64,000 bases of DNA from Anaerolineales bacterium (GTDB lineage Bacteria; Chloroflexota; Anaerolineae; Anaerolineales; UBA11579). The notes beneath the pieces were generated by a model, which was not told where the DNA came from, did no database searches, and was given only the letters and a program-made list of their open reading frames with translations. The stretch is taken from NCBI GenBank assembly GCA_025808555.1, contig CP075526.1:884712-948711 (forward strand). Reading direction: 5' to 3'. A program made the position numbers and the translations under genes. This document shows positions 55,788 to 57,916 of this stretch, one piece after another (the first letter of the stretch is position 1; every line of letters begins with the position of its first letter).

Positions 55788-56156
55788 TTACACAGAAACC
55801 GAGAGATATTGCTGGGCCAGCTGGCGCATTTGCTCATACCCGATGGGCTTGAGCAGCACCTGGTCAGCCAGGCCGGCAAAGCGGGCCACCGCGCTGGCGT
55901 CACCGGTGGTGATCACCACTCGTGTATTGGCAAAGCGCAATTGGCCGCGCAATTGGCGCAGAATAATGTCGCCTGAGAGATTGGGGATATGCAGGTCAAG
56001 CAGCACAAGATCAGGCGTTGTGAAAACCAGCTGCGCCTGGGCTTTGTGGCCGCTGTCCATCACATCGGCCTGATAGCCACAGTCTTGCAGAGCGCGCTGA
56101 AAGATCTCAGTCACTGCCTGGTCGTCATCCACGACCAATGCATACGGTGCGTTCAT
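55788..56156 (-). CDS. single-domain response regulator
   Basis: A 122-residue CheY-like receiver: acidic pocket VVDDDQ, phospho-Asp in DLVLLDLHIPN, Thr in RVVITTGD and Lys in VLLKPIG. No output domain. The ATG at 56156 has a strong GAGGAG 6 bases upstream; the longer frame above it is not typical receiver sequence. Monocistronic; its kinase is unknown. Confidence 0.87.
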   Translation of the reverse strand: MNAPYALVVDDDQAVTEIFQRALQDCGYQADVMDSGHKAQAQLVFTTPDLVLLDLHIPNLSGDIILRQLRGQLRFANTRVVITTGDASAVARFAGLADQVLLKPIGYEQMRQLAQQYLSVSV

Positions 56157-56645
56157 GTGCTCCTCCTCAGCTGTGCGGGCAGCACAGCCAGCATACTGGC
56201 CAGGGCTCGGCGAAGCCTGCTGTATGCACAGCGTCCAGTACTCTAATAACACTGTACGGGCCAAAAGGTTGCCAGCCTCAGGCTGGGAACGAATGGCAAC
56301 CCTCGCAGTTATGCGTTCGCATGTCCCTCATCCCCAGCCGACAGCCCTCTTGCTTGACAGCCACTATCAAAAATAGCGCTGGCCGCCTGGGATATGGCAA
56401 GATACCTGGGTCAGGGTGAGGCAATTGCCAGATATCTTTTAAGTTGCACCCCCCACCCCCACACTGAAAACGAACAACATCTGGCAAACCAGAGCTGTCG
56501 GGAAGCACCGCTCAGCCCCTTTGGGCAGGCTCCCGTTGACTCTTTATTGGCGCGTATGGTATTATGCGCCCCGCCTTACGCCCCAAGGCTATCGATCGCA
56601 AAGGCGACGGTTGCCGGGGCGAATTTGTGCCAGGAGAATAAGCAG
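56157..56645. other. 489-base divergent intergenic region ending in the infC leader
   Basis: Between the response regulator and infC. It holds nested inverted repeats (GGTTGCCA / TGGCAACC at 56267-56301 around CCAGCC-TCA-GGCTGG), a C-rich stretch near 56445-56460, the infC promoter (56536-56565) and a short leader in which CGCCCC and GGGGCG could pair. No gene is supported upstream of the promoter. Confidence 0.6.
56536..56565 (+). promoter_or_regulatory. strong sigma-70-type promoter for infC-rpmI-rplT
   Basis: TTGACT (56536-56541) and TATTAT (56560-56565) with 18-base spacing, the best two-box promoter in the window. Predicted leader to the AUC start is about 75 bases. Confidence 0.7.
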
Positions 56646-57230
56646 ATCAGTACATCTGAATACCGTGTAAACAGAGCCATTCGGGTAAAGGAAGTCCGCC
56701 TCATTGATGCGGACGGCGAAAACCGTGGAATTGTGCCAATCGAAGAAGCGCTCAGGATCGCCGCCGAGGCGGGCCTGGACCTGATTGAGGTTGCCCCCAA
56801 TTCCAAGCCGCCAGTCTGCCGAGTGGTCAGCTACGGTAAGTTCACCTACGAGCGCACCAAGAAAGAACGTGAGGCGCGCAAGGCACAGAAAAAGGTCGAG
56901 ATCAAGGAAATTCGTCTGCGACCCAAGACCACCGAGCACCACCGCGGTTTCAAAACCAAGGCGGCGCGTGGCTGGCTGAACGAAGGCAAGAAGGTCAAGG
57001 TTCGTATCCGCTTCCGCGGCCGCGAGCGTGACTATCCTGAGATCGCTTTGCAGGATCTCAAGGAGATTGCCGCCGAGTTGCAGGACATTTCGATCATTGA
57101 GCAGGCCCCCGAGTTTGAGGGGCGCACGCTGCTGATGGTGCTGGCCCCTAATGAAGGCGCGGGCAAGGATGCCGCCAAGGGCGAGGCCAAGGAAAAGAAA
57201 GAACCTGCGGCTAATGGCGCAGAAGAATAG
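56646..57230 (+). CDS. infC: translation initiation factor IF-3 with AUC start
   Basis: A 194-residue factor that keeps 30S subunits free and checks start codons. N-terminal domain STSEYRVNRAIRVKEVRLID through APNSKPPVCRVVSYGKF; C-terminal domain from EIRLRPKTTEHH to LLMVLAPNE, with an acidic/Lys-rich tail. No ATG, GTG or TTG lies at the family start. An ATC at 56646 does, with AGGAG 9 bases upstream. Rare AUU/AUC starts are known in infC and allow IF-3 to repress its own translation. A frame running from an ATG at 56394 would include the promoter, so it is not real. Confidence 0.9.
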   Translation: MSTSEYRVNRAIRVKEVRLIDADGENRGIVPIEEALRIAAEAGLDLIEVAPNSKPPVCRVVSYGKFTYERTKKEREARKAQKKVEIKEIRLRPKTTEHHRGFKTKAARGWLNEGKKVKVRIRFRGRERDYPEIALQDLKEIAAELQDISIIEQAPEFEGRTLLMVLAPNEGAGKDAAKGEAKEKKEPAANGAEE

Positions 57231-57887: not shown

Positions 57888-57916
57888 AAAAAGACCGCCC
57901 GATGGGCGGTCTTTTT
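57888..57916. terminator. intrinsic terminator after rplT
   Basis: AAAAAGACCGCCC / GGGCGGTCTTTTT, 13-bp perfect stem with GAT loop. Confidence 0.9.

Follow-up and report, generated by a model that had tools for sequence, protein, structure and literature searches.

In the stretch of 64,000 nucleotides analysed here (the window), which belongs to a single-contig chromosome of 2.24 Mb, infC, the gene of IF3, is very likely translated from the codon AUC at position 56646, a rare start that would place the level of IF3 under negative feedback. The two halves of this statement differ in nature. The position of the start, and the keeping of AUH (that is, ATA, ATC or ATT) throughout the phylum, are read from the comparison of sequences alone. 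The discrimination of this organism's IF3 against AUC, and hence the self-control, is carried over by analogy from E. coli. This is also where the rare-start reading put forward in an earlier note on this DNA divides: its AUC start is well supported by comparison, and its self-control would hold insofar as what is known of E. coli extends to the present bacterium.

The infC locus

The gene comes first in the order infC-rpmI-rplT (Table 1). Its product is IF3: the NCBIfam model infC TIGR00168 matches with 208.3 bits for a cut-off of 60 (E 6.5e-62), and solved IF3 structures match the protein as well, the best of them, 5me0, being aligned from query residue 5. The IF3 of the closest named genomes, those of 'Anaerolineales bacterium' (L002-L004), is 98% identical, and on this ground the chromosome is placed in the order Anaerolineales (Chloroflexota). 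The L35 protein, 83 residues long, reaches 44 bits for a curated cut-off of 51.2; its family match stops at residue 65, which suggests an extension at the C-terminus. The likely terminator of the operon is absent from the output of our terminator scan of the window, perhaps because its T run is taken up by the stem. On the minus strand, a short response-regulator gene of 121 residues (55788-56153) is divergent from the infC operon and, judged by its length, encodes a receiver domain alone.

Table 1. Features of the infC operon and of its upstream region, in window coordinates
Feature	Position	Strand	Description
Sigma-70 type promoter	56536..56565	+	TTGACT, 18-base spacer, TATTAT; TGG directly 5' of the -10 box
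Predicted 5' leader	56572..56645	+	about 74 bases; transcription start predicted from the -10 box
Leader hairpin	56579..56621	+	CGCCCC / GGGGCG outer stem and inner stem, then a weak T stretch (AATTTGTG)
In-frame TTG	56625..56627	+	5' of the Shine-Dalgarno; probably not used as the start
Shine-Dalgarno AGGAG	56632..56636	+	nine bases 5' of ATC
infC, IF3	56646..57230	+	194 codons, ATC start; profile match and start comparison
rpmI, L35	57260..57511	+	GTG start; E 2e-11, under the curated cut-off of its own family model
rplT, L20	57519..57869	+	ATG start; ORF and profile match
Likely intrinsic terminator of the operon	57888..57916	+	AAAGACCGCCC-GAT-GGGCGGTCTTT, identified by eye

The start codon at its own locus

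The earlier note had the IF3 family N-terminus begin exactly at ATC 56646, with AGGAG nine bases upstream. Both observations stand: the codon (56646-56648) lies in the IF3 frame, the protein read from it aligns with IF3 from residue 4 or 5 onward, and the AGGAG is found at that distance. The note was mistaken in adding that there is no standard start nearby, as a TTG lies in frame seven codons upstream of ATC. The frame is open further upstream, as far as ATG 56394, with 96 open codons before a stop, and a gene finder limited to ATG, GTG and TTG would misplace the start of infC here. Because the window itself retains this TTG in frame, the claim for an AUC start rests on the relatives.

Start codons across the order and the phylum

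Starts were called in the relatives as the best Shine-Dalgarno fit among ATA, ATC, ATT, ATG, GTG and TTG, with CTG added for the phylum-wide count. Of 121 genomes of the order, 113 were matched, 88 of them with usable start regions; outside the order, in the class and the phylum, we retained 105 of some 177 matched genomes, namely the best-scoring ones and a hand-picked spread. One locus cut at a contig end (L086) and eight second copies (L169, L171, L172 and L199-L203) were excluded from the counts. The called starts of the order were ATC in 44 genomes, ATA in 29, ATT in 13 and TTG in two (n=88), and in 78 of the 88 a Shine-Dalgarno precedes the called start by 6-9 bases. Over the 193 loci of the phylum we counted ATC 90, ATA 59, ATT 33, CTG 3, TTG 2, ATG 1 and GTG 1; AUH thus makes up 182 of the 189 calls, and ATG a single one. 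No start was called at the four other loci (L234, L240, L249 and L281); by eye, that of L249 may be ACG and that of L281 GTG.

Many of these loci leave no room for a standard start upstream of the called one. At 118 loci of the phylum the frame is closed by a stop 5' of the called start with no ATG, GTG or TTG in between, and the start is then AUH 115 times, and TTG, CTG and GTG once each. Within the order this is the case for 50 of the 88 genomes (49 AUH, one TTG): the stop is within six codons of the called start in 30 of them, and in 48 of the 50 there is likewise no ATG, GTG or TTG between the start and the anchor residue. A single codon stands between stop and start in L089, L100, L104, L115, L132 and L147.

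The downstream genes of the operon provided controls, smaller in size since many loci end before them. For L20 the identical caller gave, at 68 loci, ATG 52, GTG 11, TTG 4 and ATT 1 (standard starts in 67 of 68); for L35, at 84 loci, it gave GTG 46, ATG 25, TTG 1, ATT 4 and ATC 3, with no call at five (standard starts in 72 of 79 calls). AUH was therefore called 8 times in 147 for L20 and L35 together, versus 182 times in 189 for IF3. Over the 18 codons that precede the anchor, only three L20 or L35 loci have neither ATG nor GTG, and two of these three have TTG; with so few of them, we infer that most of the eight AUH control calls are caller errors.

A FastTree tree was built from the IF3 proteins deprived of their N-termini (at most 165 residues). 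On it the start codon changes at least 50 times, a figure in which some changes may be tree error, the tree being built on one short protein; when codons are scored as AUH versus all others, the minimum falls to five. The codon shifts among AUA, AUC and AUU and hardly ever to AUG, a pattern to be expected if IF3 self-control is selected for. AUH is nevertheless not indispensable, because some relatives have departed from it, to TTG in both genomes read of one family, to ATG and GTG in one genome each and to CTG in three. The TTG family (f6) belongs to the order: in L095 and L097, the two f6 genomes read, infC appears to start at TTG, which follows AAGGAG by 11 bases, and these genomes may no longer have an AUH start, nor the IF3 self-control that goes with it. 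Elsewhere in the phylum, CTG is the likely infC start in the f67 genomes L243, L248 and L258, ATG in L262 and perhaps ACG in L249, while GTG is likely in L270, a member of the same class.

The promoter

The strong promoter that had been noticed ahead of infC is borne out by its conservation in the order, with TTGACT at 56536-56541, TATTAT at 56560-56565 and TGG before the -10 box. Such a match alone is not rare, one being found in 2.5 kb where 0.7 is expected. Within the 160 bases upstream of infC, TTGACN combined with TANNNT is present in 84 of the 88 order genomes (L141 being included despite a poor -10 box), whereas 50 shuffles of those 160 bases averaged 1.0 and never exceeded 4. The spacer is of 18 bases at 61 loci, 17 at 22 and 19 at one; TGG precedes the -10 box in 78 of the 84, and the promoters lie 33-123 bases ahead of the called starts. 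A similar scan outside the order found 66 of 105 (shuffle mean 0.6, maximum 3).

Alternative readings of the start and of the leader

If infC began at TTG 56625 or further upstream, ATC would be an internal isoleucine codon. The open frame of the window would allow it, and the TTG is kept in four genomes of the same genus (L082-L085), where the surrounding DNA is identical. Yet this TTG precedes the sole good Shine-Dalgarno, is without one of its own and adjoins a stable stem, while far-upstream starts are excluded in L082-L085 by a TAG, with 12 codons between it and ATC. Two further members of the genus, L087 and L088, have TAA and then no ATG, GTG or TTG ahead of ATT; L006 and L089 similarly have an in-frame stop and none of these codons ahead of ATH, as do the 115 AUH loci of the phylum counted above. 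Relatives of this kind led us to reject TTG 56625 as a required start, and we hold an upstream start for infC to be very unlikely, even if the window's species may make a longer minor product from that TTG. A hairpin of five pairs (CAGAT / ATCTG) that would enclose the start codon was also discarded: by eye it loses one pair in L085 and is altered in L087. Translation from AUC 56646 is the reading kept in what follows.

The leader raises a separate question, as the earlier note had suggested that L20 or L35 could read its stem. The stem was correctly seen: CGCCCC (56579-56584) pairs with GGGGCG (56616-56621) and, with the inner pairs, reaches about -26 kcal/mol. The 99-base stretch that was folded has a z of -1.9, with 8 of 200 shuffles equally stable. 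The hairpin occurs in five of the seven readable leaders of the genus, in the window and in L082-L085 (-23 to -27 kcal/mol in the latter four), the leaders of L087 and L088 being of 38 bases without it; the hairpins of other families differ in sequence. RNAalifold proposed 22 consensus pairs for the five sequences, two of them with two-sided changes and six broken or gapped in at least one sequence, with a covariation term of +0.68; there is little covariation, and it lends the fold no support beyond that of its energy. A binding site by which L20 (or L35) represses the operon, as in Bacillus or E. coli, would fit with the strength of the hairpin and with the order infC-rpmI-rplT, which is that of the L20-controlled operons of these organisms. 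It does not fit with the covariance search against known L20 leaders that the earlier note had called for. No Rfam L20_leader (RF00558) match was found in the window at the gathering score, and between 56450 and 57300, with E allowed up to 5, neither of two Rfam matches was L20_leader. None of 41 order genomes has a match over the cut-off, which 2 of 14 control genomes pass; weaker matches occur in 27 of the 41, none of those listed being at infC. A 2013 survey that included five Chloroflexi genomes describes the L20 motif in Firmicutes and Thermotogales (PMC3766115). With no match to the model at infC, a hairpin missing from two of seven leaders of the genus and so little covariation, the L20 or L35 reading was rejected; we regard it as highly improbable. 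The hairpin is of secondary importance, perhaps a stabiliser of the 5' end of the mRNA or a weak terminator.

This latter role, taken further, would make of the hairpin a transcription attenuator, an intrinsic terminator placed before infC as a second layer compatible with control by the start codon. In the phylum, infC leaders are enriched in terminator-like hairpins. A first scan, at -6 kcal/mol or better, covered 83 of the 84 promoter-bearing predicted leaders of the order (L141 was excluded for its spacing) and found terminator-like hairpins in 44 of the 83, where 20 dinucleotide shuffles gave 14.3 on average and 21 at most. A stricter scan, asking for a stronger T stretch within the last 60 bases before the start, found them in 22 of 88 loci of the order (mean 4.7 and maximum 9 in 30 shuffles) and in 18 of 102 outside it (mean 6.5, maximum 11), both above the shuffle maxima, with 2 of 88 and 2 of 102 in the respective coding controls. 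The outside count includes L249, its start set by hand to ACG, and leaves out L234, L240 and L281. Folding z averages -1.08 in the leaders (30 of 82 under -1.5) versus -0.38 in coding controls (9 of 82). We further infer that any hairpin whose end lies about 40 bases or less from the start belongs to the infC transcript, because no promoter would fit behind it. L249 has a clean terminator-like hairpin, GATAGCC / GGCTATC followed by TTTTTTG, just upstream of the Shine-Dalgarno and some 25 bases before its supposed start. Against attenuation stand the 39 of 83 order leaders without any such hairpin at -6 kcal/mol and the fact that related genomes are not independent in these counts; the excess outside the order is modest because near copies are among the 18 (L214 with L218-L220, L228 with L230). 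In the window itself the T stretch, with 4 T in 8, is weak and fails the stricter rule, and the terminator scan found no plus-strand terminator in the leader. Attenuation by the leader hairpin is accordingly a possibility that we would rate as rather unlikely. More doubtful still is a general scheme for the Chloroflexota, in which two layers of control would act on infC: IF3 would read the AUH start, and transcription of infC-rpmI-rplT would be attenuated, in response to some signal, by a short terminator in the leader that changes fast and has no relation to the L20 leader.

A proposed feedback loop at the start codon

With AUC 56646 as the start, we may picture the control as follows. The transcript would begin near 56572 from the strong promoter, and AGGAG would position the 30S subunit on AUC. 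IF3 is expected to destabilise initiation complexes formed on codons other than AUG, GUG and UUG. When free IF3 is plentiful the infC mRNA would be poorly translated, and when IF3 is scarce its translation would rise, the outcome being a negative feedback loop on the IF3 level. That the first codon changes often, and is ATG once in 189 calls, argues that this loop is old and under selection. The keeping of AUH through dozens of codon changes may be seen as a natural counterpart of what was found in E. coli, where repression by IF3 is lost with an AUG start, according to the title of a work cited in PMC5472188. There is a practical side to this as well: gene finders limited to ATG, GTG and TTG will misplace the start of infC, and such misplacement is described for most Streptomyces species (PMC5472188).

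Comparison with known systems

Reports of unusual infC starts exist for E. coli, Bacillus, Streptomyces and Staphylococcus, and the window adds another case. Among the open-licence articles on Chloroflexi found in our searches, none treats the infC start or the infC leader in that phylum; the present comparison contributes the wide conservation of AUH in the Chloroflexota, the conserved promoter and the signal of leader hairpins. As in E. coli, an IF3 gene with a start against which IF3 would discriminate is followed by rpmI and rplT (PMC5472188, PMC10931766); the E. coli start is ATT, with documented IF3 feedback (PMC5472188), whereas here it is AUC, no L20 site was found and the feedback is proposed by analogy. 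The ATC start itself is shared with Streptomyces, a member of another phylum, where infC is reported to have several promoters, one of them a SigR target (PMC5472188). B. subtilis has the same gene order and an AUH start, ATT (PMC6097659, PMC10931766), and part of the Chloroflexota relatives resemble it in their terminator-like leader hairpins; its attenuator, however, is one read by L20 (PMC6097659, PMC10931766), while the present leader, of a predicted 74 bases or so, is without a match to the L20-leader model. In S. aureus, finally, infC likewise begins with an AUH codon, AUA, established there experimentally by ribosome profiling (PMC13009471), whereas the AUC proposed for the window comes from comparison with its relatives.
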